A DNA stretch of 47,870 bases, from the NCBI GenBank assembly GCA_016287095.1, contig JAEEVK010000012.1, positions 1 through 47,870 of the forward strand, read 5' to 3'. Positions 3,100-47,790 of this stretch are shown one piece after another. The translations under genes and the position numbers were made by a program. Below the pieces are notes generated by a model. It did not search any database, had not been told where the DNA came from, and saw only the letters and a program-made list of their open reading frames with translations. The DNA comes from Lachnospiraceae bacterium (lineage in GTDB: Bacteria > Bacillota > Clostridia > Lachnospirales > Lachnospiraceae). How positions within the stretch are numbered: position 1 is the stretch's first letter; each line of letters starts with the position of its first letter.

Positions 3100-3146
3100 T
3101 TAGATGAATAATCACACATGACTTTTATTTTGGAGGATGATTTTTT

Positions 3147-3704
3147 ATGATTTCAGCAGGTGATTTTAGAAACGGTTTAACACTTGAAATTGAAGGCGCT
3201 GTTTTCCAGGTTGTTGAGTTCCAGCATGTAAAGCCCGGTAAAGGAGCTGCTTTTGTAAGAACTAAGTTAAAGAACATTATCAACGGTGGTGTTGTTGAGC
3301 GTACCTTCCGTCCTACAGAGAAGTATCCTCAGGCTCATATCGAGAAGAGCGAGATGCAGTACCTTTACGCAGACGGCGATATGTACAACTTCATGAATAC
3401 TGAGAACTATGAGCAGATCGCTCTTACAGCTGAGCAGATCGGTGATGCTCTTAAGTTCGTTAAGGAAAACGACATGGTTAACATGCTTTCATATCAGGGC
3501 AAGGTATTCTCAGTTGAGCCTCCTATGTTTGCAGAGCTTGTTATCACAGATACAGAGCCCGGCTTCAAGGGTGATACCGCTACAGGTGCTACAAAGCCCG
3601 CTATAGTTGAGACAGGTGCTCAGATCCTTGTTCCTCTCTTTGTTGATCGTGGAGATAAGGTTCAGATCGATACCCGTACAGGTGAATATCTTAAGAGAAT
3701 CTAA
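3147..3704 (+). CDS. efp: Elongation factor P
   Basis: 185-residue translation factor that binds between the ribosomal P and E sites and relieves stalling at polyproline stretches. It has the three-domain EF-P length and ends with the OB-fold signature ([16 protein letters not shown]). The modifiable loop reads [10 protein letters not shown] with Lys32 at the tip, the same position as in Bacillus EF-P, whose lysine carries an aminopentanol-type modification rather than the beta-lysine used in enterobacteria; which modification applies here cannot be seen. The start follows a TGGAGGATG ribosome site. It has its own promoter and terminator, so it is probably a single-gene transcript. Confidence 0.97.
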
Positions 3705-3717
3705 TAATTTTCTTAAT

Positions 3718-3751
3718 GCCATTTCCTTTTATGGGAAATGGCAAATTTTTT
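3718..3751 (+). terminator. Rho-independent terminator after efp
   Basis: GCCATTTCC / GGAAATGGC forms a perfect 9-bp stem with a 7-nt loop, followed by AAATTTTTT. It starts 13 bases after the efp stop. Confidence 0.88.
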
Positions 3752-3752
3752 G

Positions 3753-3781
3753 TTTTCAAATTCTTTATAATATGTTATAAT
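3753..3781 (+). promoter_or_regulatory. Putative promoter of asp23-nusB-ispA-dxs
   Basis: An extended -10, TGTTATAAT, ends at 3781, with TTTTCA (3753-3758) 17 bp upstream as a weak -35. It is the only good promoter between the efp terminator and the Asp23 gene. Confidence 0.5.
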
Positions 3782-3848
3782 AGATCATAGGTTATCATCT
3801 AATGTGAAAACCTGCGATCTAAAGTATAATTCTGAAAGGAATGTAACG

Positions 3849-4199
3849 ATGGAAAAGAATCTGGATTTTAAAGGTGATATAAAAATATCTGACAGCGTAG
3901 TTGCCAGTATAGCCGGTCTTGCTGCATCCGAGATAGACGGTGTGGATTCCTTAAGCGGTAATCTTACCAATGAGATCGTAGCCAAGTTCGGTATCAAAAA
4001 CAACTCTAAGGGTGTAAAGCTTGAGATAAATCAGGGAAGTGTTATAGCTGACATCTATGTTAATGTTGTTTACGGCTTCAGTATCCCGGATGTATCCGCA
4101 AAGGTACAGGAAAAGGTTAAACAGGCTATAGAGAGCATGACAGGCCTGACAGTAGTAGGTGTTAATGTACGTGTAGTTGGTATCACAGTTAAAGTATGA
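3849..4199 (+). CDS. Asp23/Gls24 family envelope stress protein
   Basis: 116-residue protein of the Asp23 (DUF322) family. Typical features are ISDSVVASIAGLAASEIDGV near the N-terminus and a final stretch rich in Val (LTVVGVNVRVVGITV). Members are small cytosolic or membrane-anchored proteins linked to cell-envelope stress; no enzymatic activity is known. A GTG at 3804 would extend the frame by 15 residues, but GAAAGGA at 3834-3840 is properly spaced for the ATG at 3849 and the extra residues look unlike the family. It is followed 32 bp later by nusB, a gene order widely conserved in Clostridia, and is probably the first gene of the nusB-ispA-dxs transcript. Confidence 0.92.
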   Translation: MEKNLDFKGDIKISDSVVASIAGLAASEIDGVDSLSGNLTNEIVAKFGIKNNSKGVKLEINQGSVIADIYVNVVYGFSIPDVSAKVQEKVKQAIESMTGLTVVGVNVRVVGITVKV

Positions 4200-4231
4200 T
4201 AAATAATCTTATCTGATTAGGAGTACGGGTG

Positions 4232-4669
4232 ATGACAAGAAGAGCACTGAGAGAACATCTTGTAAGGCTGCTTTATATGAGAGAGTTTCATGAGGCTGAT
4301 GAGCTGGAAGAGCAAAATCAGCTCTATTTTGATGTCATTCTGCCAAATGAAGATGCAGAATGCGAGGAGCGGGACGAGGTTTTAACGAGACTTGCCGCAA
4401 TAGTGGAAAAGTTGCCCGAGATAGATGCTTTGCTTACGGCTAAGCTTCAAAACTGGAACTTCCGTCGTATCGGTCTTACGGAAAAGACTGTCCTCAGGAT
4501 CAGTGCTTTTGAGATACTGTATGATGATGTGCCCGCAAAGGTGGCTATAAATGAGGCAGTTGAGCTTGCTAAGCTTTACGGCGGCGAACAGTCATCCGGA
4601 TTTGTAAACGGAGTACTTGCAAAAATAGTTAAAGGGTTAGAGCCTGACGATGGAAACCAATCTACTTGA
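4232..4669 (+). CDS. nusB: Transcription antitermination factor NusB
   Basis: 145-residue RNA-binding protein that joins NusE (S10) at boxA and supports rRNA antitermination. The N-terminus TRRALREHLVRLLY is the helical RRxARE motif, and the C-terminal half carries DDVPAKVAINEAVELAK and GFVNGVLAKI, both diagnostic. The central loop is somewhat long and acidic. AGGAG at 4219-4223 lies eight bases before ATG 4232; a GTG three bases earlier is less well spaced. The last 20 bases overlap the ispA start in another frame, indicating translational coupling. In many relatives xseA and xseB lie between nusB and ispA; they are absent here. Confidence 0.95.
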   Translation: MTRRALREHLVRLLYMREFHEADELEEQNQLYFDVILPNEDAECEERDEVLTRLAAIVEKLPEIDALLTAKLQNWNFRRIGLTEKTVLRISAFEILYDDVPAKVAINEAVELAKLYGGEQSSGFVNGVLAKIVKGLEPDDGNQST

Positions 4670-5618
4670 ATCAAAGATAAAACATGTAAATGATATCTTG
4701 AAGGAGAAGCTTCCTTCGAGTGATGAATACGGTAAAATATGCGAATCCATGAGCTACAGCGTTCTTAATGGCGGAAAAAGATTAAGAGCCATAATGCTTT
4801 TGGAGAGCTTCAGACTGTTTTCAAATGATACCGATTTAGAAAAGATGCTCGCTGAGCCTTTTGCAGCAGCGATAGAGTTTATACATGCTTATTCGCTTGT
4901 ACATGATGATCTGCCTGCCATGGATAATGATGTTTTAAGACGTGGCAAGCCTACCACTCATGTTGCATTCGGTCATGCAATGGGTGTACTTGCGGGTGAT
5001 GCGCTGCTGAATTATGCATTTGAAACCATAGGCAGTATATGTGATGATCCTCATGTGTTCGAAGGCGGATATGCAGCGAGAGTTATCAAAGCATTCAGGA
5101 CATTTGCCGACAAAGCCGGATACAGCGGTATGATAGGCGGACAGGTCCTTGATACTACCGAAAAGTATTCAGAATCCATGGATATTAAGGGCTTTGATGA
5201 GCTTGACGGGTTTAGAGATAAGATTTCCGATATCGGAAAGTTAAAATACACTCTAAGAGTGAATGAACTTAAGACATCACAGCTTTTTGAGGCAGCTCTT
5301 ATGTCGGGAGCAATACTTGGCGGAGCGGATGAAAGTGAAGTTAAACTCATGGAGGAGGCCGGCAGAGCATTGGGGCTTGCATTCCAGATAGAGGATGATA
5401 TCCTGGATTTGACCTCAAATGCCGAGACTCTCGGTAAGAGTGTAAATATTGACGAGAAAAATGATAAAGAGACGATAGCGCGTACACTTGGGCTTGAGAT
5501 GTCTGAGGAGCTGGTTAAAATGTACACGGCGAAGGCTATAAATGCTGTTTCGGCTCTTGGAAAAGATTCGCAGTTTTTACTTAAATTATTTGAAAGCCTG
5601 ATTTTCAGGAAACTTTAA
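4650..5618 (+). CDS. ispA: Polyprenyl (farnesyl/geranylgeranyl) diphosphate synthase
   Basis: 322-residue trans-prenyltransferase condensing IPP with allylic diphosphates to make FPP or GGPP. The first Asp-rich motif is DDLPAMD (residues 86-92), the second DDILD (249-253), the GGKRLR substrate loop is at 41-46 and KTSQL (208-212) is the conserved Lys-Thr. Between GGQVLD and KTS there are about 19 extra residues compared with E. coli IspA, probably a surface loop. It overlaps nusB by 20 bp and is followed 29 bp later by dxs, so both ends of the MEP-to-prenyl route are co-transcribed. Chain length cannot be told confidently from sequence. Confidence 0.93.
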   Translation: METNLLESKIKHVNDILKEKLPSSDEYGKICESMSYSVLNGGKRLRAIMLLESFRLFSNDTDLEKMLAEPFAAAIEFIHAYSLVHDDLPAMDNDVLRRGKPTTHVAFGHAMGVLAGDALLNYAFETIGSICDDPHVFEGGYAARVIKAFRTFADKAGYSGMIGGQVLDTTEKYSESMDIKGFDELDGFRDKISDIGKLKYTLRVNELKTSQLFEAALMSGAILGGADESEVKLMEEAGRALGLAFQIEDDILDLTSNAETLGKSVNIDEKNDKETIARTLGLEMSEELVKMYTAKAINAVSALGKDSQFLLKLFESLIFRKL

Positions 5619-5647
5619 TTTGCTATTGTTGTGGATGGAGTTATGTC

Positions 5648-7513
5648 ATGAGTCTGCTTGATCTGATAAACGAACCGAATGACATTAAAAATATCCCCGA
5701 GGAACAACTGAAAGATCTTGCAAAGGAGATCAGGAAATTCCTTGTACGCAAGGTGAGCAATACCGGTGGGCATCTGGCATCGAATCTCGGTGCTGTGGAG
5801 CTCACGATGGCGCTTCACCTTTTTTTGACATTCCCGGAAGACAAGCTGATATTTGACGTTGGACACCAGAGTTATACCCACAAGCTGCTCACCGGACGTA
5901 AGGGTGGATTCGACCGCTTGAGACAGTTTGGCGGCATGAGCGGTTTCCCAAATAAAAAGGAGAGTCCCTGTGATCCTATAAATACAGGCCATGCTTCGAC
6001 TTCCATATCCATAGCGGACGGTATGGTGAAGGCCAGGGACCTGAAGGGCGAGGATTACAAGGTAGTAGCGGTTATCGGTGACGGTTCCCTGTCGGGCGGC
6101 ATGGCTTTTGAAGCTCTGAACAATGCAGGCAGGCTTAAGTCAAACCTGATCATCGTGCTTAATGATAATAAGATGTCCATTTCCGAAAATGTGGGCGGCA
6201 TGGCTGCTTATCTCGGAAAACTAAGGACAAACTCAAAATATACCGGACTCAAGATGAATATTGAGGAAAGGCTGAAAAATGTTCCTTATATGGGTGAGGG
6301 CATCGTAAAGAAAATCAAGACTTCGAAGGAGTCTATAAAGAGCCTGTTTGTTCCCGGTATGTTGTTTGAAAATATGGGTATTACCTATATCGGACCCATC
6401 GATGGACACAATATACCCTTGATGTTAAATGCTTTTCAGGCTGCGAGCCAGTCAAAGACTCCTGTTTTGGTTCATGTGATAACCAAGAAGGGAAAGGGCT
6501 ATGCTCCGGCTGAACATGATCCTGCAAGCTTCCATGGCGTTGAGCCTTTTGATACCAGCACCGGTGAGAAAAAGGCTGAAAAGTCCTGCAAGTCATATAC
6601 TGATATCTTCTCTGATACCATAACCGGTATAGGAGAGAGTAATTCAAATGTTGTGGCTATAACTGCTGCTATGGCTGACGGTACCGGGCTTAAGGAATGG
6701 TCCAAGAGATTCCCTGACCGTTTCTTTGATGTCGGCATAGCTGAGGAACATGCGGTGACCTTTGCCGCAGGTATGGCTTCGGGCGGATTGCATCCGGTTG
6801 TTGCTGTATATTCCACATTCCTGCAGAGGTCCTTTGACCAGTTGATACATGATGTGGCTCTTAATTTCCTGCCTGTGACCATCTGTGTGGACAGAGCAGG
6901 TATAGTTGGATGTGACGGTGAGACGCATCAGGGTATCTTTGATGTTTCGTATCTGTCAAGTATACCCGGGTTTGCTGTTATGGCTCCAAAGAATGCTTAC
7001 GAGTTTGCTGACATGCTGGTGTTTGCATGCAGCTATAACGGACCTTCGGCTATCAGATACCCCAGGGCCAAGGCTTTCTATGGATGCAAGACTGATAACC
7101 CTATAGTGCTGGGTAAGGCTGAGGTACTCCATCAAGGCAAAAAAGCGGCTGTGATCGCAGTGGGCAAGATGGTTAAGGTGCTGGACGGGATACTGACGGA
7201 GCTTAGGGACGAGGGCTATGATATCACATTTGTTAATGCGAGATTTATAAATCCTATTGACTTTAAGCTGATCGATCATCTTTGCGATACACATGAGCTT
7301 ATCATTACGGCGGAAGAGAATGTTAAGCGCGGTGGTTTCGGTGAAGCGGTTGCTCTGCATATGCTGGAGAACAGAAAGACCAACAGATTCCTTAATATTT
7401 CGCTTCCTGACAGCTTCCTTCCTCATGGTAATCCAAGGGATATCAGGGACTCTATCGGGTTTGATCCGAAGTCTCTGAAAAATAAAATAAAAAAAAGTAT
7501 TGACGAAATCTAA
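5648..7513 (+). CDS. dxs: 1-deoxy-D-xylulose-5-phosphate synthase
   Basis: 621-residue thiamine-diphosphate enzyme that condenses pyruvate with glyceraldehyde 3-phosphate, the first step of the MEP isoprenoid pathway. The N-terminal domain has FDVGHQSYTHK, NTGHASTSIS and the ThDP/Mg motif GDGSLSGGMAFEALNNAG followed by NDNKMSIS. The middle transketolase domain has FFDVGIAEEHAVTFAAGMA with the catalytic Glu and DRAGIVGCDGETHQG. The C-terminal domain (about 480-621) is complete. Length matches the family. The start follows GGAG in GATGGAGTTATGTC. It is the last gene of the asp23-nusB-ispA run; the rpsU promoter overlaps its last codons. The usual downstream tlyA, nadK, argR and recN are not present. 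Confidence 0.97.
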   Translation: MSLLDLINEPNDIKNIPEEQLKDLAKEIRKFLVRKVSNTGGHLASNLGAVELTMALHLFLTFPEDKLIFDVGHQSYTHKLLTGRKGGFDRLRQFGGMSGFPNKKESPCDPINTGHASTSISIADGMVKARDLKGEDYKVVAVIGDGSLSGGMAFEALNNAGRLKSNLIIVLNDNKMSISENVGGMAAYLGKLRTNSKYTGLKMNIEERLKNVPYMGEGIVKKIKTSKESIKSLFVPGMLFENMGITYIGPIDGHNIPLMLNAFQAASQSKTPVLVHVITKKGKGYAPAEHDPASFHGVEPFDTSTGEKKAEKSCKSYTDIFSDTITGIGESNSNVVAITAAMADGTGLKEWSKRFPDRFFDVGIAEEHAVTFAAGMASGGLHPVVAVYSTFLQRSFDQLIHDVALNFLPVTICVDRAGIVGCDGETHQGIFDVSYLSSIPGFAVMAPKNAYEFADMLVFACSYNGPSAIRYPRAKAFYGCKTDNPIVLGKAEVLHQGKKAAVIAVGKMVKVLDGILTELRDEGYDITFVNARFINPIDFKLIDHLCDTHELIITAEENVKRGGFGEAVALHMLENRKTNRFLNISLPDSFLPHGNPRDIRDSIGFDPKSLKNKIKKSIDEI

Positions 7514-7527
7514 TTTTATGGTATAAT
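7500..7527 (+). promoter_or_regulatory. Strong promoter of rpsU
   Basis: TTGACG (7500-7505), a 16-bp spacer and an extended -10 (TGG followed by TATAAT, 7522-7527). It overlaps the last codons of dxs. The leader to the rpsU ATG is about 70 nt. Confidence 0.78.
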
Positions 7528-7605
7528 GTTTAGCGTGCTATTTAAATTACCCAAACAGTTGATTTGGCACAAGTTCACAACTGGAGGGAGGTTAGGTGTG
7601 AGATT

Positions 7606-7782
7606 ATGTCAAACGTTATCGTAAAAGAAAACGAGTCATTAGACAGCGCTCTTCGCAGATTTAAGCGTAATTGTGCTAAGGCAGGTATCCAGCAGGAAAT
7701 CCGCAAGAGAGAGCATTACGAGAAGCCCAGCGTAAGACGTAAGAAGAAGTCTGAAGCTGCTCGCAAGAGAAAATTTAAATAA
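7606..7782 (+). CDS. rpsU: 30S ribosomal protein S21
   Basis: 58-residue basic protein of the small subunit, located near the anti-Shine-Dalgarno region and involved in initiation. It matches S21 end to end: [18 protein letters not shown] at the start, then [20 protein letters not shown]. The frame is open upstream to 7564, but AGGTG at 7594-7598 is spaced seven bases from ATG 7606, where the family N-terminus begins. It has a dedicated strong promoter and a perfect terminator, so it is a monocistronic unit. In many relatives rpsU is followed by yqeY (GatB-like); here a foldback element follows instead. Confidence 0.96.
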
Positions 7783-7796
7783 GTTTATTTTGGTGA

Positions 7797-7828
7797 CCCT
7801 TGTCATTTTTGACAAGGGTTTTTTTTGT
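7797..7828 (+). terminator. Rho-independent terminator after rpsU
   Basis: CCCTTGTCA / TGACAAGGG is a perfect 9-bp stem with a 4-nt loop, directly followed by about ten T. It begins 14 bases after the stop codon. Confidence 0.95.
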
Positions 7829-7839
7829 TTACTAGTCAC

Positions 7840-8083
7840 GGAGTGAGTATATGGAGGGGCTCCTAAAAACATCATCGCTTTTGCAGGGATATGCTAATGC
7901 TGTAAAATGTATTTTTCGCTGCGGACGCTCGCAATCGTGGCTCCGACTGATGTCGGACCCACTTGGGCTTCGCTCGAAAAACGATTTGGATAATCGTTTT
8001 TCGCCTTGCTCAAAATCATTTGCCGGCAAAGCATATCCGCTGCAACGCTTAGGTTTTTAGGAGCCCCTCCATATGCTCACTCC
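7840..8083. repeat. 244-bp foldback element with nested hairpins
   Basis: This gene-free stretch between rpsU and phoH has long inverted ends. GGAGTGAGTATATGGAGGGG and the following CTCCTAAAAAC on the left match the complement of the right end (8053-8083) with one mismatch over about 31 bases, and similarity continues imperfectly for about 25 more bases. Inside are two further hairpins: CCGAC / GTCGG (7943-7956) and a perfect 12-bp stem CGAAAAACGATT / AATCGTTTTTCG (7975-8003). The ends are themselves palindromic (GGAGGGGCTCC-like). A short ORF inside looks non-coding. It could be a MITE-like non-autonomous element or a large structured RNA. Confidence 0.85.
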
Positions 8084-29264: not shown

Positions 29265-30773
29265 ATGATAAAGGATTTCTATTATAATATTGTTAATGGT
29301 CTCAATGTAAAGGAAAATCTTCTTTCACTTAAAGAGACCCTTAAAACACCTATTAAGGGCAGCCGCGAGAAGGATGCCCTTCTTTCAATATTAAACGGTG
29401 ATTTTTCAGTGCTTACTGAACTGCTAAAAAACGAGGATCCAAAGATCAGAAAGAATACGGCGATTGTCCTCGGGATACTTGAAGCACCTGAGAATCTGGA
29501 TGCTCTGTATGAGGCTTATACTACGGATATAGTTATGTATAACAAGGCCACATATGTTGAAGCGTTAAGGAAAATCGGATACGAAAAGTATAAGGATGAA
29601 CTGAAGGCTCGCTTTGAGGAGCTTAAGAAGATTCCTGTCGATGATGAGAACAGAAAGCATGTAGTCGATGAGATGAAGCAGCTGGTAAAGATATTTGGCA
29701 ACGGAAAGCTCGTATTTGCCGGATTCGGTCTGGAAAATGAGTGCATCTTTACCACTAACCGCAGTCATAAGGAAGTGACCGGAGACCAGATAAAGAAGCT
29801 GCCCCACAAGGATTTCCCTTCAGGCATTATCTTTAAGACAAAGGCCCTGGAGGACGTGATCCATATCAGGACCTATGACGAGCTGCTCTTTGTACCGGAC
29901 GGAGCAAGGACAGTCAGTGCCGATCCAAAGAAGGCCGCAAAGGAGCTGTTTGATGCCGGCATAAAGGAATATATATTCAGGAGAGTCCTGATAAAGGGCG
30001 AAGAGGCTGAGCAGAGTAGCGGATACAGGGTTAATTTCCGTACAGAGCTGCGTTCAAAGGATAAGCAGAAGGCTGCTGATTTTGCAAAGAAGTTTTCTGA
30101 GGAGCTGGAGCTGCTCACTAACTGGGGACTTTCCAATTCGGTATCGAATTATGATGTGGAGATCAGATTTGTCGAGACCTCATCAGACAAGCTCATAGTA
30201 CTGGTTAAGTTCTGTATCTTAAAGGATGACAGATTTACATACCGCAGGGAAACCATAGCAGCCACCATAAAGCCGTACCTCGCAGCTACCTTGATGCAAC
30301 TGGCTAAGCCCTACCTAAAGGGTAACGCTACCGTACTTGATCCGTTCTGCGGAGTAGGCACCATGATAGCAGAGAGAGAGCTTGCGGTTAATGCCAAGAG
30401 GTACTACGGCATAGATATATTCGGAGAGGCTGTAAAGAAAGCCGAGATCAACTTGAAGTCAGCAGGCGTACTCAAGAAAACCGATCTGATCAACAAGGAT
30501 TTCTTTGAGTTTAAGTCGACACATCTTTTTGACGAGATCATTACTGATATGCCTTTTGTTACAGATCAGAAGTCACTTTTTGATATAGAGAAGATCTATG
30601 AGGCATTCTTTGATAAGGCTGATGAGCTGCTCGACAAAAAAGCTGTTATCATAATGTATTCAAGGAATCCGGAGTTTGTTAAAGAATACTCACATTTGAG
30701 TAATTGTACACTCAAAGAGGATTTCGAGATATCTAAGAAGGATAATAGTCATTTGTTTGTTTTAGCAAGGTAA
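29265..30773 (+). CDS. HEAT-repeat/THUMP-like SAM-dependent RNA methyltransferase
   Basis: 502 residues in three parts. Residues 30-145 form helical HEAT-like repeats (EDPKIRKNTAIVLGILEAPE). Residues 185-310 resemble the N-terminal and THUMP region of UPF0020/Trm14 enzymes, with YRVNFRTELRSKD and a helix ending in YDVEIRF. The methyltransferase domain follows, with motif I VLDPFCGVGTMIAE (357-370), acidic YGIDIF at motif II and the catalytic motif TDMPF at 427-431, resembling the D-x-PF type of Trm14/THUMPD rather than DPPY. Together this suggests a tRNA or rRNA guanosine methyltransferase. Substrate is unknown. The HEAT extension is unusual. AAGGG lies 13 bases before the ATG. It is followed by a 58-aa ORF six bases later. 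Confidence 0.78.
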   Translation: MIKDFYYNIVNGLNVKENLLSLKETLKTPIKGSREKDALLSILNGDFSVLTELLKNEDPKIRKNTAIVLGILEAPENLDALYEAYTTDIVMYNKATYVEALRKIGYEKYKDELKARFEELKKIPVDDENRKHVVDEMKQLVKIFGNGKLVFAGFGLENECIFTTNRSHKEVTGDQIKKLPHKDFPSGIIFKTKALEDVIHIRTYDELLFVPDGARTVSADPKKAAKELFDAGIKEYIFRRVLIKGEEAEQSSGYRVNFRTELRSKDKQKAADFAKKFSEELELLTNWGLSNSVSNYDVEIRFVETSSDKLIVLVKFCILKDDRFTYRRETIAATIKPYLAATLMQLAKPYLKGNATVLDPFCGVGTMIAERELAVNAKRYYGIDIFGEAVKKAEINLKSAGVLKKTDLINKDFFEFKSTHLFDEIITDMPFVTDQKSLFDIEKIYEAFFDKADELLDKKAVIIMYSRNPEFVKEYSHLSNCTLKEDFEISKKDNSHLFVLAR

Positions 30774-39425: not shown

Positions 39426-39500
39426 TGTCGATATAATATATAGTAGCATAGGGATAATATGTGCTGAAAGCAGAACATCAGTTTGGAGGGAGATGGCAGG

Positions 39501-39821
39501 ATGACTGAAATCTATTATGAAGATCAGACCGGCTGGTCTAACAAAGATTACCTTTATCTGCACAGATGCCTTCACAGATTGTTCTTTTACTACAAAAAGT
39601 ACCATGAAGTCATATCCTCTATGGATATAAGCAGGATGTCAAAAGAGACCAAGGTACTGATATACTGTATCATAAAGTACTATCGAAACGACTTTATGTT
39701 CCGGGAGTATAGAAATCTCGAAGATATAGAAAAATCAGAACCATTAAAGGAAAAGCTGGTACTTGAAGATCGTGTAAAGCAGCCGGATGATATCTATAAG
39801 ATGATGAATGTAGTCTACTAA
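39501..39821 (+). CDS. Hypothetical protein, partner of nucleotidyltransferase-like gene
   Basis: 106-residue soluble protein without a recognised domain. It is helical in appearance, with many Tyr and charged residues (LHRCLHRLFFYYKKYHEV, IIKYYRNDFMFREYR) and an acidic-basic C-terminus. GGAGG lies 11 bases before ATG 39501; the open frame begins earlier at TTG 39483. It has a likely promoter of its own and is followed 12 bp later by the nucleotidyltransferase-like gene, so the two form a small operon. This arrangement resembles toxin-antitoxin or abortive-infection pairs, where one partner is a nucleotidyltransferase. That reading is inference. Confidence 0.6.
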   Translation: MTEIYYEDQTGWSNKDYLYLHRCLHRLFFYYKKYHEVISSMDISRMSKETKVLIYCIIKYYRNDFMFREYRNLEDIEKSEPLKEKLVLEDRVKQPDDIYKMMNVVY

Positions 39822-39833
39822 AGAGAGGTACTG

Positions 39834-40391
39834 ATGCTAAAAGAAAAAGGTCTGCCTGCTTTTGAAGAAGCGCTAAAGATGCTGGACAAGAAACTTGAAA
39901 GCATCGGAGAGCATATAGTCATACATGCTATCGGCGGATTTGTCATGTTGTACTATGGAATAGACGATCATGGCTACACCATAGACATAGATACACTAAC
40001 TCCAAGATATGATGATTTTGTTATAGAAGTCATAGCAGAAGTAGGAAAAGAGCTTGGGCTGGAAAAGGATTGGCTGAATAACGACTGTGCTACACTTCCT
40101 GGCTTTTTGAAAGAGCTTGATGCTAACATCAAATGGGAAAAAGCCAAGTATAGTTTAAATAATATAGAGTTATATGTAGCAGATTATATCGGGATGATAA
40201 GAGTCAAAGCAAAGGCAGTACATGATGGTGGTTTAGTTCCAAGAAAAACAGATACTACAGATATGCTGCTACTTCTTAAAACAAACAACATAAACAATAT
40301 TGAAGAACTTGATAATGAAAAACGGGTAAACTTTATAAAGAATAAATACAATAGAGCATATAAGTTATTAGAAAAAATGCATGATTGGTGA
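39834..40391 (+). CDS. Nucleotidyltransferase-like protein (DUF6036/AbiEii-like)
   Basis: 185 residues. The N-terminal half has the minimal nucleotidyltransferase pattern HAIGGFVMLYYG followed by YTIDIDTLTPRYDDF, i.e. GG and DxD separated by about 20 residues, as in DUF6036 and AbiEii-type proteins. After that come ELYVADYIGMIRVKAKA and a helical C-terminus rich in Asn and Lys. The Arg that normally precedes T-x-D-I-D in this group is replaced by HGY. Members may be toxins of type IV systems or adenylate tRNA. GAGAGG precedes ATG. It follows a 106-aa gene and precedes the pilus operon by 99 bp. Confidence 0.6.
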   Translation: MLKEKGLPAFEEALKMLDKKLESIGEHIVIHAIGGFVMLYYGIDDHGYTIDIDTLTPRYDDFVIEVIAEVGKELGLEKDWLNNDCATLPGFLKELDANIKWEKAKYSLNNIELYVADYIGMIRVKAKAVHDGGLVPRKTDTTDMLLLLKTNNINNIEELDNEKRVNFIKNKYNRAYKLLEKMHDW

Positions 40392-40418
40392 TAGCGGTAG
40401 GAATAAAGATTTAGATGT

Positions 40419-40471
40419 TATCCTTAGTAAGGTTGATACTGCTTTGTAGTATCAATAGAACACAAAGGATA
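40419..40471 (+). ncRNA. Structured leader upstream of pilin operon
   Basis: TTGATACT / AGTATCAA (40433-40440, 40448-40455) is a perfect 8-bp stem with a 7-nt loop, enclosed by TATCCTT / AAGGATA (40419-40425, 40465-40471). There is no T-run. It lies 20 bases before the first pilin start and close to its ribosome site AAAGGTGG. It could regulate translation or mark an RNA cleavage site. Confidence 0.5.
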
Positions 40472-40490
40472 TTAAAGGTGGTGAGCCAGA

Positions 40491-41096
40491 GTGAAGATGA
40501 CAGGATTAAGACAATCGAATAAGGGATTCACGCTGGTGGAACTGGTTGTAGTTATGACTTTAGTTTCTGTACTGGCTGCAGTTACAACTATGAGTTTGAT
40601 TAAATGGCAAAGATATTCAAAATATCAAACTCAACAAGAAAATGCTGAAATATTATATATGGCAGCGAGAAATAAGATTGCTCAGCTAAGAGCCGACAAT
40701 GCTCTTACGGAATTTATTGATCGTTATTATCCTGAAAATAATTTGAAAAACCATATATATAAGAATAATAGTGATAAATCTAAAGTAATATATTATGCTT
40801 ATTGCTGGGATACTGATTATGCATCATATAAGAATAATATGGATTTTTCATCAGGCGCAAATAAAAGTGGGAAAGCATTTATATTTGAGTTAGTTGATGA
40901 ATATATTCGTGATGCTAAAATTCTAAAAAACCATATATGTATCATGTTTAACAAAAATGGTGATATCTATGCTATATATATTAGTGATAGTTGTAAATTG
41001 GGCAAGGATAGCAAACTTATAGCAGACAGTATTAAACCTGAAAAATTATACGATAATTGTGTTGGAGCATATCTATCAGAACAAGCCAGTAAATAA
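40491..41096 (+). CDS. Type IV pilus-like pseudopilin
   Basis: 201 residues. A class III prepilin leader SNKG precedes the cleaved N-terminus FTLVELVVVMTLVSVLAAV, with Glu at +5 as in true pilins. The remaining globular part is rich in Asn, Lys and Tyr with two Cys (one in YCWDTD, one in SDSCK, plus others), and has no clear fold match. The start is GTG 40491 with AGGTGG nine bases upstream; an ATG six bases later is also possible. It is the first gene of an operon of pilins and assembly proteins. It could be the major or a minor pilin. Confidence 0.85.
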   Translation: MKMTGLRQSNKGFTLVELVVVMTLVSVLAAVTTMSLIKWQRYSKYQTQQENAEILYMAARNKIAQLRADNALTEFIDRYYPENNLKNHIYKNNSDKSKVIYYAYCWDTDYASYKNNMDFSSGANKSGKAFIFELVDEYIRDAKILKNHICIMFNKNGDIYAIYISDSCKLGKDSKLIADSIKPEKLYDNCVGAYLSEQASK

Positions 41097-41155
41097 CGCT
41101 AAAAATAACTTTAATGATATTTGATATAGATGTGTCAAGGGGGGCTACTATTTAT

Positions 41156-42673
41156 ATGATTATGGATAAAAATAGATCATATAATATGGATAATAAAGGC
41201 TCGGCAATCATTACCGGACTGGTAGTAAGTGCGATATTGATGGTGCTATGCCTTTCTTTGGTTTTAGTAGCCTATTCTTTGGTAATCTCTACGGCAAAAA
41301 ACACTTCAAATCCTGCAAATAGAGAAACTCTTTTTTCTGTGGCTGAAGCTATGGAACATGAAATATTGGATTTTAAAGTTGATGTTAATGAATTATCAGT
41401 TGTAGACGGGAAATTATGTAGTACAGATCCAAATACAAATACTGAATTAAATAATAGACAAATATGGGTATACATATATAATGAACTGTTTAAAGGTTTT
41501 ACATTTATTGAAGGATCTACAACTCAAGTTAAAATTGAATCAGCAAATCCTGTACAATCAGGCGCTTGGTTATATTACAAAGCTAATGCTGGGAAAAATA
41601 GTGATCATTCAGATTTAGCTAAGTGCTCAAAATATTTTCAGATATCATCTCCGGGAAATTCAAAAATATTTGTTCAGTTTTACTGGGAACTACCAGATAA
41701 TTGGTCGGGAGATATAGACAAGAAAACTGGTACTGTTTTAAATGCCATCTATAAAATGTATAATAACAATGGAGAACTTTTAGTACGTACAGATCGAAAG
41801 TATATATTGAAATATGATAAACAAAATAGTATTGATAGTTCGACAGATGGAAATTTAAATGGACATCAGGAAAATCATGAATATTATAATGGTGGAGAGA
41901 CGTACACAATTCCATCTAACAATGGCATAGATATAGTTTTTGAATGCACTGGTGCAAATTATTCAGAACGTGACAACTCAATGGGGTATTGGGGAAATAT
42001 AATTATAACTAATAACTCAGGAAAGAAAATTGATAACTGGGGGATATATATTTATTCAGATGATGATTTGTCTTTACGAGGCAATATATCTCCAGAAAAA
42101 AAATCTGAGGGAATATATAAAATATCACATGATAGTAGTGGAAAATATTTTTCGCCACTTAATGATGGTGATAGCCTTCCTATTAGTGTTGGCGCTAATA
42201 ATGTTGAGTTAGTTAATTTGCCTAAAGTTGTTTTTTATGAACTACAAAAATCAGAAATTGTTTCTGATATATTTTCTTTAACTCCTGCTTATGGATATAA
42301 TAATGAAAATTCATATAATTACAATATAAAAATAAATAATAATAGCAAAATTCCTCTTGAAGATTGGTATATTGTTTTTGATTTTGATAGAAATATTACA
42401 TGGAATAATACTGGCGGTAATATGGAACGTACAGGTAATACATATACTATTTATCATGGAAATGGTGGTCATACTATACCCGCTTATGACTTTATACAAT
42501 TCACGTTTGGTGGAGATGGAGATAATACTTCTGCTGTACCTACAAATATAAAACTTTACGCAGTTTATGATGATGGAACTAACGGCTCTACGGAGTCCTT
42601 AATATGGAAATGGAATAGACTTGGATTTGAAAACATTGAAACTGTGTCAACGCAGACAGGAGGTGCTGGTTAA
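41156..42673 (+). CDS. Large pilin-like protein with two CBM2-like carbohydrate-binding modules
   Basis: 505 residues. An N-terminal NKGSAIITGLVVS and a long hydrophobic helix (about 15-45) resemble a PilX/GspK-type minor pilin without Glu5. Residues 50-235 form a globular part. Then come two modules of about 100 residues: module 1 (about 258-360), with YWGNIIITNNSGKKIDNWGI, and module 2 (about 370-472), with YNIKINNNSKIPLEDWYIVF, a middle Trp-Asn (ITWNN), RTGNTYTI, and IPAYDFIQFTFGG. These strands follow the CBM2 pattern (N-x-G, x-x-W, WN, G-x-x-Y, P-G-x-x-x-x-FGF). CBM2 binds cellulose or xylan through surface Trp. The start ATG 41156 follows AAGGGGGG. It is AT-rich, and its role as an adhesin is inference. 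Confidence 0.72.
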   Translation: MIMDKNRSYNMDNKGSAIITGLVVSAILMVLCLSLVLVAYSLVISTAKNTSNPANRETLFSVAEAMEHEILDFKVDVNELSVVDGKLCSTDPNTNTELNNRQIWVYIYNELFKGFTFIEGSTTQVKIESANPVQSGAWLYYKANAGKNSDHSDLAKCSKYFQISSPGNSKIFVQFYWELPDNWSGDIDKKTGTVLNAIYKMYNNNGELLVRTDRKYILKYDKQNSIDSSTDGNLNGHQENHEYYNGGETYTIPSNNGIDIVFECTGANYSERDNSMGYWGNIIITNNSGKKIDNWGIYIYSDDDLSLRGNISPEKKSEGIYKISHDSSGKYFSPLNDGDSLPISVGANNVELVNLPKVVFYELQKSEIVSDIFSLTPAYGYNNENSYNYNIKINNNSKIPLEDWYIVFDFDRNITWNNTGGNMERTGNTYTIYHGNGGHTIPAYDFIQFTFGGDGDNTSAVPTNIKLYAVYDDGTNGSTESLIWKWNRLGFENIETVSTQTGGAG

Positions 42674-42674
42674 T

Positions 42675-43097
42675 TTGAATAATAGAGGCACTACACTTGT
42701 AGAAATTACCATTGGATTTCTTATGTTGGCAATTATTATGACATCTTTCATTAAAATAATCAAGTTATCAACAGAGATGACAGAAGATGCTGTGAAAACA
42801 AAAGATAAAAATTTGCTTTTTGAAGAAAAATATTACGCTGGATATAATTATATAGTGGATTTTAATGGTAGTTCAAATTATGCATTTAGAGAAGATAGTA
42901 ACTCAATATTGCCGATGACTATAGAATTGAAACCATTAAAAAGCGACAAGTTTTTTGTGAATGGGGCTATCAATAATAACAATAATGAAATTGGAGAAGC
43001 GATAGTCTTGTCAAATACAAAACTTAAGATTATTGAAAACTATCGAGATATGGAAATAGCGAGAAAATCAATATTTAGGTATGTATACAATAAATAA
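42675..43097 (+). CDS. Type IV pilus-like pseudopilin
   Basis: 140 residues starting at TTG 42675, which follows a perfect AGGAGGTG by nine bases. The prepilin leader is MNNRG, then TTLVEITIGFLMLAIIMTSF with Glu at +5. The short globular region has an Asn run (NNNNNE) and no recognised domain. It begins one base after the stop of the CBM-carrying gene, so the two are translationally coupled. An upstream frame extension to 42621 overlaps that gene and lacks a ribosome site, so it was not used. It is probably a minor pilin that joins the priming or tip complex. Confidence 0.82.
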   Translation: MNNRGTTLVEITIGFLMLAIIMTSFIKIIKLSTEMTEDAVKTKDKNLLFEEKYYAGYNYIVDFNGSSNYAFREDSNSILPMTIELKPLKSDKFFVNGAINNNNNEIGEAIVLSNTKLKIIENYRDMEIARKSIFRYVYNK

Positions 43098-43132
43098 ATT
43101 TTTGAGTAAAAGATCTCAGAAGGGAGGATATC

Positions 43133-43861
43133 ATGAAAAGTGTCAGAATGGACAATAAAGGTATGACGCTACTTGAATTAATGATATGCTTTGTCCTTTT
43201 GGGCTTTTTACTTCTTGCGGGTTCTCAAGTAATTATATCTACAACTCAAGTATACTATTATACAAAAGCAACAGATTATGGAATGCAGGCCTCTCAATTA
43301 ATAGCTACTGAAATTAGAGGTGATTTAACAGAAGCTATTATGAAGAAACTTGTATTAAGTCCAAATTTAACAGGTATAGATACACAAAAATGTATAGATA
43401 TAGGAACTGCAGGAGATTCCATTAGTTTTATTATATTTAATGAGGTGAACGGTGTTCTTCAAGATGATGGCATACAGGTTTCATACCATCTTACAGATGA
43501 AATATCAGATACAAATACTTCTGGTGGAAAAGTGTTAGTAAGAGACGCATTTCAGGCGTATGATAAAGTTTCTGCAGATCATGCATCAGTTTCAAAAACG
43601 GCTTTACCTCAGGTAAAATATGATACTAATTATATTGGTATGAACTACAAAGTAAAAAGTATTTCATTTTCACTTTATAAGCCCGGAGATTCTTCTGCTG
43701 ATACATCCATGGAGTCTCTTAGAAGCGGAGATTATCCAGTTATAGAAATGACAATCATAGTGAATAATCCTCAATATGGAGATTATGAATGTAAGGAATA
43801 TATACCGCTATATAATTATTATGGTCTATCAGATCAAAATATTAAGAAATTGATTGGATAA
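43133..43861 (+). CDS. Type IV pilus-like pseudopilin
   Basis: 242 residues. The leader MDNKG precedes MTLLELMICFVLLGFLLLAG with Glu at +5; the first residue after cleavage is Met instead of Phe, as seen in some minor pilins. The C-terminal part resembles PilW-type minor pilins in length, with strands such as VIEMTIIVNN and NYYGLSDQ, but I cannot assign it more closely. AGGGAGGATATC precedes ATG. It lies in the pilin cluster between a short pilin and a small bitopic protein. Confidence 0.82.
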   Translation: MKSVRMDNKGMTLLELMICFVLLGFLLLAGSQVIISTTQVYYYTKATDYGMQASQLIATEIRGDLTEAIMKKLVLSPNLTGIDTQKCIDIGTAGDSISFIIFNEVNGVLQDDGIQVSYHLTDEISDTNTSGGKVLVRDAFQAYDKVSADHASVSKTALPQVKYDTNYIGMNYKVKSISFSLYKPGDSSADTSMESLRSGDYPVIEMTIIVNNPQYGDYECKEYIPLYNYYGLSDQNIKKLIG

Positions 43862-43888
43862 AGGCCTATAATTTGAAAGGAGCCATTG

Positions 43889-44341
43889 ATGAAGGAATCA
43901 GATAACATATCGCTGCAAAGAGATATACGTCGCGCGGTTTTTAGACGTATCGCAATTTATGTTGTAGTTATTCTGGCTCTGGTTATATTTGCTACATTTG
44001 TTTTTCACCAGTTTAAAATCTATTCTAATGCAAGATTAAAACTTCGAGAGGCTAAAAATATTAAAATGAGCCTAGAAATGGTCAATACAGAATATTACGC
44101 ATTAGGCCTTTCAATTTTTGATGAAACTGAAAAAGGGAATATTCGAAAAGGAGCATATGCTTATGTAGAAAGAATACAGGGAGATTTGGAAGGAACATTT
44201 AAACTTACAGGTTATGATAGTTCTAAACGAATTATTACTGGATTAGAATATGAAACAGATGAATATATAGTTAGATATACTAAAAATGATGAAAATGGTG
44301 AATGGAAGGTTTGTTTGATTAAGGAACTACTTACATATTGA
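43889..44341 (+). CDS. Small bitopic membrane protein in pilus operon
   Basis: 150 residues. A basic N-terminus (QRDIRRAVFRRIAIY) precedes one membrane segment (about 24-43), then an amphipathic helix and a small C-terminal globular part with a beta pattern (YDSSKRIITGLEYETDEYIV). There is no prepilin motif. AAAGGAG at 43876-43882 supports ATG 43889 over the TTG one codon before. Its place between pilins and PilC suggests an inner-membrane accessory such as a PilN/PilO-like or PilP-like part, but no family was recognised. Confidence 0.65.
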   Translation: MKESDNISLQRDIRRAVFRRIAIYVVVILALVIFATFVFHQFKIYSNARLKLREAKNIKMSLEMVNTEYYALGLSIFDETEKGNIRKGAYAYVERIQGDLEGTFKLTGYDSSKRIITGLEYETDEYIVRYTKNDENGEWKVCLIKELLTY

Positions 44342-44357
44342 AGCGAGGATATAAACT

Positions 44358-45560
44358 TTGACTACATATAAATATATAGCTAGAAATGATAAAGGTAAAA
44401 AAATAACAGGAAAGCTTCAAGCTAATGATGATATTGACTTGCAGGCTCGATTAAAAAACGAAAATATATATTTGGAATCAGCAGAGGAAGTTGTTAAGAA
44501 ATCCATGGGTAAAAAAATCCGTGCTGACAGAGTAGCTGATTTCGCCAGAAACCTTGGGAAATTGATAGGTGCCGGAGTATCGTTGGTAAGAGCTCTTAGA
44601 ATTATTTGTGATGATGAAACACTTAGGCAAAAAGAGCGAAATCTATATGAAAATGTTTTAAAACAGGTTAGAACTGGTATAAGTTTATCTGAAGCAATGA
44701 CTATGCAAGGTATGGCATTTCCTTCAATGATGATAAATATGTTTAAGAGTGCTGAAGCATCTGGAACACTTGAAGCAACAGCAAATCAGATGGCTGAATA
44801 TTATGCAAAAGAATATAAATTATATAAGAAGATAAAGAGTTCTATGACATACCCCAAAATACTTGGCGTACTAATGGTAGTTGTATTAGCCATTATTATG
44901 GGATATGTAGTGCCACAATTTGAAGATCTGTTCGCACAGATGGAATCACTTCCTGCTACCACCGAGATTCTTTTAGGGTTAAGTAACTTTATAGCTAATA
45001 AGTGGTATCTAATTATATTATTTGGGGTTATTGGATTTATTCTTTTCAAGTTACTATTTTCGGTGCCCTCAATAAAATATTTAAAGGATAAGATGAAAAT
45101 AAAGTTCCCTAAGCTTGGAAAACTTCAAAAAATTATATATACGGCAAGATTTTCAAGAACATTAGCAAGTCTTTATAATGCAGGTCTTCCGATTATTTCG
45201 TGTATTACGATAGCGAGAGACACAATTGGTAATAGATATCTTGAAGCACAGTTTGATACCGTAATAAAAGATATACAAGCTGGTCAAAATCTTAGTGACG
45301 CATTAGCAAAGGTTGATGGTTTTGTTAAGAAACTTGTATCATCGGTAGTAGTTGGAGAAGAAACTGGTACATTAGATGACATGCTTAACTCAGCAGCAGA
45401 CCAATTGGAATATGATTCTGAAATGGCTGTACAGAGTATGGTTTCAATGTTAGAACCCTTGATTATTGTGGTATTGGCATTTACAGTCGGTTTTATTATA
45501 ATATCAGTTATACAACCTATTTATGGTTCATATGATGCTATCGCAAATTCTACAAAATAA
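44358..45560 (+). CDS. pilC: Type IV pilus inner membrane platform protein PilC (GspF family)
   Basis: 400-residue polytopic protein with two T2SSF repeats (about 60-185 and 265-388) and three main hydrophobic segments. The start MTTYKYIARNDKGKKITGKL is typical. Each repeat has its signature: ADFARNLGKLIGAGVSLVRAL and FSRTLASLYNAGLPII, and each ends with an EASGTLE / GEETGTLDD motif and a Tyr-rich helix. PilC organises pilin insertion above the PilB motor. The start is TTG with GAGG nine bases upstream. It follows the small bitopic gene by 16 bp. Confidence 0.95.
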   Translation: MTTYKYIARNDKGKKITGKLQANDDIDLQARLKNENIYLESAEEVVKKSMGKKIRADRVADFARNLGKLIGAGVSLVRALRIICDDETLRQKERNLYENVLKQVRTGISLSEAMTMQGMAFPSMMINMFKSAEASGTLEATANQMAEYYAKEYKLYKKIKSSMTYPKILGVLMVVVLAIIMGYVVPQFEDLFAQMESLPATTEILLGLSNFIANKWYLIILFGVIGFILFKLLFSVPSIKYLKDKMKIKFPKLGKLQKIIYTARFSRTLASLYNAGLPIISCITIARDTIGNRYLEAQFDTVIKDIQAGQNLSDALAKVDGFVKKLVSSVVVGEETGTLDDMLNSAADQLEYDSEMAVQSMVSMLEPLIIVVLAFTVGFIIISVIQPIYGSYDAIANSTK

Positions 45561-45581: not shown

Positions 45582-47051
45582 ATGAGTACAGTCATATATT
45601 TATCCAATCAGCAAATACATATAGTAGATGGTAAACGTGGTAAAACAGCCACTGTCAATAAGTTTTATTCATATCCTGCACCACAAGGTACCATTATTAA
45701 TGGTATTATTATGGATTCGGAAACATTTGGTGCTTTTTTGAAGGAAAAATGGGCCGAGAATAAACTACCTGTTAAGGATGTTAATTTAGTAGTAAATAGT
45801 ACGAAGTTTGTTGGACAGAATATGGAAATACCCAAGATGTCGGATGATAAGACGCTTGAGTATATAAGAAGGGGCTTTTCTAATATTGATCGTTCAGAAG
45901 AAAAGTTATATGGTTTTGTTCGTTTAGATGCTTCAGCTAAAAAGATGCATCGTCTGTATGCAGAAAGTGTATCACCTGATTTTTTAAAAGATTATATCAA
46001 TTTCTTTGAAGGAATAGGTATTAAACTTAAGGGTATTTACTCCGGTGAGGGCAGTTTGATTAGCTTGCTTAATAACACTTTGGCTAAGACGAATAAAACC
46101 TTCTTGGTTATGATATCCGACAGCATGACCTTAACTACTGTTTTGTATGTTAATAAGGTCTTTACTTATTATAATTCTGCTCGTTGTTTCCATGAACCGG
46201 GATCCGAAGATTATGCCCAGGATTTGACTAGATCTGCAAGTCAGATTCGTCAGTTTATGCAGGCAAATCAGTTAGAGGCTGAACTGGAAACAATATATCT
46301 CGCCGGAGTAGAAGATAGAGATCTTTCATTCTACAAAACCATTATGGCCGAGTATGGTGTTCAGACTAAGATAGATATATTTACTGATAATAGGAATATA
46401 AAAGGTTCAGATGGTATACATGCCCAAAAATATATATATGCTGCGAGCGGGTTGTTTGAGTCAGGCATTGGTTCAAATTATATAATAAGGTACCAGAGTA
46501 AGAAGGAAGAAAAGAAAAATGGTTCAAATGCAAAGTACTTTATAATTCTGGCTATAACGCTTATAGTTATGATTATGGTATTTGTTATCGCACTCTTAAA
46601 TAAAAAGAAAAAAGAATCTGAACTCGAAGAAATAGAGAGTTATAATAATAGTGCAACTATTCAGATGCAGGTATCTGAATATGACGAACTTACAGCTAGA
46701 AACAGTTTTCTTATAGGACAATACCTCTCGATAGCTTATATAAATGAAAATTTAGATACTTATCCTTGGGCTACAAGTAGTGTTCAATCGCATATATTCA
46801 AGTTGGCGAATGGTTATGCGACTGTAACTCTTACTAGTTGTAATTCTGATACCGGTACTACGAATATGGATGTTATGGCATCGAATGTTCAAACAATTAA
46901 CGAGTTTATTACTATACTTAAGGGTCAAAAGATTTTTCATGATGTTAAATATAGTGGTTACAGTTATTCTGCTGAGGACCAATACCATGTAAATGTGTCA
47001 TGTACATTAGAGGAAGCTGTTGGTAGAGAAGGAGAAGCAGATGAAAATTGA
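45582..47051 (+). CDS. pilM: PilM-PilN fusion protein
   Basis: 489 residues. The N-terminal 300 residues have the actin-like PilM pattern, including a strand start MSTVIYLSNQQIHIVDG, the IPKMSDDKTLEYIRRGF block, and LVMISDSMTLTTVLYV. A single membrane segment (about 319-339) follows, then a coiled-coil and an extracytoplasmic PilN-like domain. In most systems PilM is cytosolic and binds the short N-terminal peptide of a separate PilN; here the two appear joined in one chain. GGAG precedes ATG at 45582. It overlaps PilO by 11 bases. The PilN half is assigned by topology rather than by motif. Confidence 0.78.
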   Translation: MSTVIYLSNQQIHIVDGKRGKTATVNKFYSYPAPQGTIINGIIMDSETFGAFLKEKWAENKLPVKDVNLVVNSTKFVGQNMEIPKMSDDKTLEYIRRGFSNIDRSEEKLYGFVRLDASAKKMHRLYAESVSPDFLKDYINFFEGIGIKLKGIYSGEGSLISLLNNTLAKTNKTFLVMISDSMTLTTVLYVNKVFTYYNSARCFHEPGSEDYAQDLTRSASQIRQFMQANQLEAELETIYLAGVEDRDLSFYKTIMAEYGVQTKIDIFTDNRNIKGSDGIHAQKYIYAASGLFESGIGSNYIIRYQSKKEEKKNGSNAKYFIILAITLIVMIMVFVIALLNKKKKESELEEIESYNNSATIQMQVSEYDELTARNSFLIGQYLSIAYINENLDTYPWATSSVQSHIFKLANGYATVTLTSCNSDTGTTNMDVMASNVQTINEFITILKGQKIFHDVKYSGYSYSAEDQYHVNVSCTLEEAVGREGEADEN

Positions 47052-47790
47052 ATTAACAGAACGAGATAAAAAATTGCTCACTTTTATGGGCGTATTTGTG
47101 TTAGTAGCACTTATTGGGTATTATGGAGTGTTACCCCAAATAAAAAAGGCTAATGAACTACAAGATGATATTGAAGAACAGGAAAGCCTTCAAATGATTT
47201 ACGAATCAAAAGTAGCCCAACTTTTTTTAGTTGAAGAAAACAACAAAGTATTAGAAGGGTTAATTGAAGGAGCTAAGGAAAACTATTATCCAATGATGGA
47301 TAGTGATGAGATTGATAATCTTGTTACTAATACTGTTATTGAAAAATATAATTTAATATCTTACGATTTAATTATTGGAGAGAGGTCTCTTGCAGGACTT
47401 CAGCCATATATTTATTCCAAGAAAGCTTTAACTGGTGAAAGTGATGCTCAAGAAAGAGCTATGCAAGCTGCAGCTCCTATAATTGGGGAAGACGGAATAC
47501 TTCTTTTTGCAGATATAGATATATCTGGATCATTTTCTTCGGAAGAATATGAGGACGATGCTTTAGCGACAGGAGTATATATGGTGCCTCTTCAAATGCG
47601 TCTTTCTGGTGAAATGCAAAACATCTATAAATTTCTTGATGATTTAGCATTATCTGAAAAGAAAATAAGACTGGTTAATTACTATTTAAATACTGAAGAA
47701 ACAGTTATTAATCATGATGATGGTACGGAAGAAATAATTGTGACGGATTCTTTGAATGTGGCTTTTGAATTGTATATGTGTGCGGATTAA
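47041..47790 (+). CDS. pilO: PilO-like pilus assembly protein
   Basis: 249 residues: a short cytoplasmic N-terminus, one membrane segment (about 13-31), then a coiled-coil (KKANELQDDIEEQES) and an alpha-beta outer domain with LRLS-like strands and a periplasm-side ferredoxin-like pattern, as in PilO. It would dimerise with the PilN half of the preceding protein to form the alignment complex. AGGAGAAGCAG lies before ATG 47041, inside the end of the pilMN gene, and gives an 11-base overlap. The frame could extend upstream to 47020, but this start fits better. Confidence 0.8.
   Translation: MKIELTERDKKLLTFMGVFVLVALIGYYGVLPQIKKANELQDDIEEQESLQMIYESKVAQLFLVEENNKVLEGLIEGAKENYYPMMDSDEIDNLVTNTVIEKYNLISYDLIIGERSLAGLQPYIYSKKALTGESDAQERAMQAAAPIIGEDGILLFADIDISGSFSSEEYEDDALATGVYMVPLQMRLSGEMQNIYKFLDDLALSEKKIRLVNYYLNTEETVINHDDGTEEIIVTDSLNVAFELYMCAD

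Follow-up and report, generated by a model that had tools for sequence, protein, structure and literature searches.

The 47,870-nucleotide stretch analyzed here (hereafter the window), contig JAEEVK010000012.1 of the Lachnospiraceae bacterium assembly GCA_016287095.1, carries a type IV pilus operon whose second pilin-type gene, here termed pilin2 (41156..42673, plus strand), is a 505-amino-acid open reading frame (ORF). Its product is pilin-like, carries two CBM2-like modules, and is predicted to be a cap-type modular minor pilin. An initial annotation had described the gene as a pilin-like member of such an operon with two modules of this kind, and this description holds. Pilin2 was found as a single match in its own genome, which is 85% complete.

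A probable ribosome-binding site, AAGGGGGG (41137..41144), was recognized by eye 11 bases 5' of the ATG at 41156. The leader (residues 1–15; 41156..41200), likewise read by eye, ends in MDNKG before a predicted prepilin cleavage site, and its G15 is invariant in alignment A1. It is followed by a hydrophobic, then amphipathic helix (residues 16–71; 41201..41368), modeled by AF2 as helices 14–49 and 53–71, and by a globular pilin-like body (residues 72–225; 41369..41830) with strands at 159–163, 170–178, 194–202, and 208–225. Module 1 (residues 249–352; 41900..42211) and module 2 (residues 366–471; 42251..42568) come next, and the protein is completed by a conserved closing strand (residues 479–495; 42590..42640), of which K485 and W486 are invariant across the 24 rows of A1. 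In the wider alignment A6 this Trp is replaced by Phe in the related locus L021, and the related protein P0025 stops before the position. All these features lie on the plus strand.

The placement of the modules can be read from a natural relative that lacks cargo (L016:6878-7753, 291 amino acids, no Pfam match) and has a Gly/Ser linker where the cargo would be. The body strands of the pilin2 model have counterparts in the model of this homolog, which comprises a helix at 13–71 and last strands at 207–226 and 277–290. Because the latter correspond to strands 208–225 and 479–495 of pilin2, which flank both modules, the cargo is probably inserted into the last beta hairpin, within its loop. The Gly before the long hydrophobic helix is clear; the helix and strands come from models of modest predicted local distance difference test scores (65.4 for pilin2 and 69.4 for the cargo-free homolog), judged without coordinates.

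Neither the Pfam N_methyl model nor the GFxxxE signature matched pilin2, and a search against NCBIfam returned nothing above cut-off. Residue 5 of the mature protein is Thr instead of the Glu (Glu5) of its neighbors; Thr occupies this position in 52/52 database relatives, and Met in the L021 copy. Pilins 1, 3, and 4 of the operon bear Glu5 in all six loci compared (the window, L015, L016, L018, L019, and L021; two rows by eye). Pilin2 thus shows the combination that marks K-type tip subunits, namely the lack of Glu5 next to minor pilins that possess it.

The other genes of the operon are also on the plus strand. Pilin2 is preceded by minor pilin 1 (GFTLVE; 40491..41096; N_methyl 32.8 bits) and followed by minor pilin 3 (GTTLVE, TTG start; 42675..43097), which had no Pfam match when searched from 42672, that is, one codon longer, and by minor pilin 4 (GMTLLE; 43133..43861; N_methyl 26.9 bits). 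A single-span membrane protein recognized by eye (43886..44341) has no family match over cut-off and occupies the same place in relatives. It is followed by the GspF/PilC platform protein (44358..45560; T2SSF 170.8 bits), a weakly PilM-like protein (45582..47051; TIGR01175 22.3 bits, cut-off 133), and a PilO/GspM-like protein below cut-off (47020..47790; T2SSM 20.3 bits, cut-off 27.8). The contig end at 47870 precedes the place of PilB in relatives: a PilB ATPase gene comes next in all seven loci L015–L021, the L018 copy being cut by a contig end, and the loci of sufficient length continue with a major-type pilin (GFTLVE) and additional pilins. The operon is classified as a type IV pilus operon on GspF and the pilins in the window together with PilB in L015–L021. 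These loci belong to Lachnospiraceae metagenome-assembled genomes (MAGs), of which four come from the rumen or omasum of water buffalo, goat, or sheep and the other three bear the isolate codes RUI091, Tb.RUG.456, and Tb.RUG.194. Within the genus, the pilin2 base and a close GspF (at least 66% identity) are found in the identical 9 of 24 genomes, many of which are incomplete.

The CBM2-like modules and their binding face

The initial annotation had regarded both modules as resembling CBM2. Profile searches bear this out for module 2, which scores 26.6 bits against Pfam CBM_2 (PF00553; cut-off 24), but not for module 1, which had no match when searched alone. The CBM2 beta-sandwich fold is present; the aromatic strip is mostly gone. 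In the CBM2a of Cex, cellulose is bound by three tryptophans, W17, W54, and W72. At these positions MAFFT places N/G/Y in module 1 and N/W/G in module 2, whereas hhalign sets the Trp of module 2 opposite a gap, so that no aromatic residue is left there. Each window module has 0–1 of the three aromatics, positions that were placed at about 20% identity and are accordingly uncertain, the two programs differing on one residue of module 2.

Control CBM2 modules from the same genome and three others have all three aromatics in six of seven cases, and the three own-genome controls, carried by a GH5 cellulase and by a vWA protein, retain W/W/Y. Among 46 pilin modules from 23 proteins (including the window; P0001 was removed as near-identical to it), all three aromatics are present in one, at least two in 17, and none in nine, while the core Trp is found in 45. 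The fold has thus been retained and the classical strip mostly lost, and relatives may differ in ligand. Since the strip is mostly gone, cellulose or xylan binding through the classical CBM2 face, as initially proposed, is unsupported for the window copy, and we reject it as the default reading. We propose that the modules instead recognize some glycan or protein that is not crystalline cellulose, through a non-classical face.

Two surface-type proteins encoded elsewhere, L023 (G000:C74) and L013 (G006:C32), combine two CBM_2 modules that have the aromatic strip with a vWA domain and TSP3-type repeats, the TSP3 score being below cut-off in L013. They are possible fibre adhesins.

Cargo variety and genomic surroundings

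In the nine genomes with pilin2 the cargo takes several forms. Two CBM2-like modules are present in G000, G012 (protein P0007), G022 (which reads as P0008), and G006, whose protein is close to P0003 and interrupted by a contig end. G001 has one module without a Pfam match, G007 a Gly/Ser linker, G016 a region without family, and G009 and G013 InlB-type B-repeats, with four stretches scored in each. Such repeats also sit on the same pilin base in six database proteins of 1487–1706 amino acids (P0047–P0052), one of them G009's own; 12 were scored in P0048. The L015 gene at 3142-8016 likewise encodes an InlB-type B-repeat protein on this base. For the other-cargo proteins P0035, P0036, P0037, P0040, P0041, P0044, P0046, and that of G016, Pfam gave nothing over cut-off; P0037 has InlB-like LYAHW ends by eye. 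CBM2 is not the point of the locus, as InlB-type repeats, a single module, or a linker occupy the same place in relatives. Because the searches for relatives were limited by length and shared words, the frequencies of these cargo types are no estimate for nature.

Base and cargo identities were compared for 55 proteins (1378 pairs; P0001 and the duplicates L015 and L018 omitted, cargo shorter than 60 residues skipped). In 27 pairs the bases are at least 90% identical; the cargo of 18 of these is below 60% identity and that of nine below 30%. Such pairs occur in all eight base clusters. An extreme case is P0006/P0023, with 98% identity in the base and 26% in the cargo, and the reverse is seen in P0002/P0022 (79% and 93%). 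Besides the operon and the modules, the sequences show a base and a closing strand that stay constant while the cargo between them varies, and near-identical bases that bear very different cargo. Cargo exchange between strains would leave such a pattern of identities. In the G006 MAG, the gene is broken by the ends of two contigs that hold different alleles, which fits strain variation yet shows that assembly can mislead; other alleles lie on long contigs (P0015 on five, the longest of 344 kb, and P0004 on one of 251 kb).

An inversion system of the shufflon type was considered and rejected as unsupported, as the 85% complete genome has one copy; the analysis included no search for a recombinase gene. 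Repeats in 40400–43200 are weak only, the longest being 28 nucleotides at 71%.

Upstream of the operon lies an ORF (39483–39821), a relative of which also precedes this operon in G022 (L006); a BlaI-like gene, recognized by eye, is there instead in L015, L016, L018, L019, L021, and G006:C59, giving two neighborhoods for one operon. The next ORF (39834–40391, 185 amino acids) has no Pfam or NCBIfam match, and its AIGGF...DID pattern looks nucleotidyltransferase-like by eye. Further away, 29265–30773 encodes a UPF0020/RMKL methyltransferase whose HEAT-like N-terminal part is slightly below cut-off. A second pilus-type locus, with a GspF 28–30% identical, exists in G006, G007, G009, G013, G016, G018, and G022. 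This GspF lies close to ATPases of the PilB and PilT types, and most of these loci have an A24 peptidase frame of 276–322 amino acids on the same contig.

A predicted pilus tip and its alternatives

On balance we lean slightly towards pilin2, a pilin-like protein with two CBM2-like modules, being a tip-capping modular minor pilin that would present exchangeable adhesin cargo. Its helix would pack into the filament as the K subunit of an H-I-J-K minor pilin set does, the absent Glu5 would mean that no pilin sits above it, and the cargo would face outwards from the last beta hairpin loop and grip a surface or another cell. PilT would then retract the pilus and pull the cell in, and strains would change their target via recombination of cargo between the conserved ends. 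More hesitantly, and with somewhat less than even confidence, we propose a plug-in tip in rumen Lachnospiraceae: a constant cap pilin would take CBM2-like pairs, a single module, InlB-type repeats, or none inside its last hairpin, and strains would swap these cassettes by allelic recombination, changing the grip of a retractile pilus, with the CBM2 fold serving as a diversified recognition scaffold instead of simply binding cellulose. The target may reasonably be guessed to be plant surfaces because the genome encodes GH5, GH9, and GH10 enzymes (three GH9 matches, seven GH10-matching stretches in six frames, and a GH5 cellulase with CBM2), and the InlB-type cargo in relatives suggests that other cells or matrices are also targeted.

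The tip position, already suggested in the initial annotation, is plausible for a cap-type protein without Glu5, but no fold or sequence match of the pilin2 base to GspK or PilX was among the matches listed; a base profile searched against PDB had one unrelated match only (E 0.62). Retractile attachment, proposed at the same time, agrees with the presence of a PilT-type retraction ATPase (438 bits, cut-off 319.1) in the genome of the window, and in G009 and G016 an equally scoring PilT lies on the pilin2 contig, about 40 and 44 kb away.

Several observations weigh against the proposed tip. PilT exceeds its cut-off in 16 of the 24 genus genomes, eight of which are without pilin2 (8/15 of those lacking the gene), and in G012 it is present only as two pieces. 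PilB was not found in the assembled genome of the window, whose sole A24 peptidase match, a 143-amino-acid frame, is on the contig of a TadA-like ATPase, and three of the nine pilin2 genomes (G000, G001, and G012) show no A24 peptidase of greater length. Membership of pilin2 in the pilin family lacks sequence support. A fold search with the cargo-free homolog model gave no convincing match to a solved structure, and pilin identity consequently rests on the leader, helix, and operon; no pilin entry was among the best 50 matches listed per fold search, by which absence is not shown. Operon and anatomy would make the protein pilin-like.

Among the alternatives, the most probable, though still unlikely, is that the cargo is a spacer or shield diversified against pilus-tropic phages or antagonists and not meant for target binding. 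The loss of most of the binding strip while the core Trp is kept, the near-identical bases with very different cargo, and the linker-only version would all suit such a role, against which stands the recurrence of a carbohydrate-binding-type fold and InlB-type repeats, both suited to surface contact. That the modules are working CBM2 domains which bind cellulose or xylan and turn the filament into a fibre-binding pilus appears less probable still. The fold and Pfam score of module 2, the fibre-degrading genome, and the link between type IV pili and cellulose adhesion indicated for Ruminococcus in excerpts of PMC3672088 speak for it, as do the CBM_2 scores of the relatives P0007 (55.2 bits) and P0008 (58.5 bits; two stretches in each), compared with 53.4 for one stretch of the own GH5 enzyme, and the 17 modules with at least two aromatics. 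The residues of the window modules, unlike those of the own-genome controls, and the non-CBM cargo in relatives argue against it.

The mosaics of base and cargo could also be chimeras of metagenome assembly, since all named genome records are MAGs, several proteins come from one short contig, and two G006 contigs break inside the gene. We regard this as very improbable in view of the alleles on long contigs and the repetition of the pattern in every base cluster. Even less credible is a secretion pseudopilus with pilin2 as GspK-like export tip, for which we see the least chance: the GspF match and weak GspM-type match would fit it, but relatives whose loci extend there have a major-type pilin and more pilins after PilB, and PilT is present.

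How uncultured rumen fibre bacteria choose and attach to surfaces is poorly known. Some members of the genus were recovered from buffalo, goat, and sheep foregut. If our reading of pilin2 is true, a constant tip with exchangeable cargo would amount to a strain-level attachment code in the rumen, and modular pilins would extend to forms without Glu5 that signature-based surveys likely miss. It also cautions against reading cellulose binding into every CBM2 annotation of a surface protein. Each cargo piece is small and amenable to separate testing.

Comparison with known systems

The following comparison draws on excerpts of the cited papers. Lectin and vWA modules are established cargo of modular pilins, and 264 architectures were reported in a survey that required IPR012902 (PMC8179133). 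Because this signature had to be N-terminal and pilin2 has no N_methyl match, such a survey would likely miss it; of the features of a modular pilin, the extra domain is present, the N-terminal signature is absent, and the base would count as a pilin on our reading of the operon and anatomy. The initial annotation took the fusion of CBM2-like modules to a pilin to be undescribed. Pilins with grafted carbohydrate-binding modules are, however, already known (PMC8179133; PMC9934059), so that novelty appears confined to the CBM2-type cargo, to where it seems to be placed, and to its exchange; the carbohydrate-binding cargo named in the excerpts of PMC8179133 is PF13385, PF13620, and PA14, not CBM2. 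Neither the literature matches listed, which did not extend to subscription papers, nor the excerpts mention a CBM2-bearing pilin or cargo exchange in such pilins.

In the rumen, the closest counterparts are the cellulose-adhesion pilins of Ruminococcus, type IV pilins that likewise occur in rumen Firmicutes and are connected with fibre. Among them, Pil3 has a mass of 14 kDa, and the excerpts on it mention no CBM (PMC3672088). The CBM2 modules of Cex CBM2a, EngD (3ndy), and ChiA74 (6bt9) share the beta-sandwich and core Trp with pilin2; compared with these modules of fibre and chitin enzymes, those of the window mostly lack the aromatic strip and sit on a pilin-like base. The PilV minor pilin of IncI plasmids resembles pilin2, as proposed here, in that a constant base carries an adhesive part which can be exchanged and which determines specificity. 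In its shufflon, however, a recombinase acting on cassettes swaps the 3' part of the gene (PMC9045228), whereas pilin2 is present in one copy with both ends conserved.

In the minor pilins GspK and ComZ, the beta sheet harbors an inserted domain (PMC8179133), and the K subunit of the H-I-J-K tip set lacks Glu5 and caps the filament (PMC9934059). Pilin2 shares the bulky extra domain, probably also placed in the sheet, and the missing Glu5, but no match to these proteins in sequence or fold was among those listed, and its cargo is CBM2-like or InlB-type and not an alpha-domain or beta-solenoid. Similar in design are the modular pilins PilB and PilC of a monoderm bacterium, in which a small pilin part modeled at the tip carries a grafted binding module, an arrangement predicted for pilin2 as well; adhesion has been demonstrated for PilB and glycan binding for PilC. 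Their modules are C-terminal, whereas the pilin2 cargo precedes a conserved closing strand; they possess Glu5, which pilin2 does not; and the pilin2 cargo is a CBM2-like pair that differs between near-identical bases. Pilin2 would thus extend the modular pilins by a cap-type member whose CBM2-like cargo is bounded by a conserved closing strand and swapped between strains.
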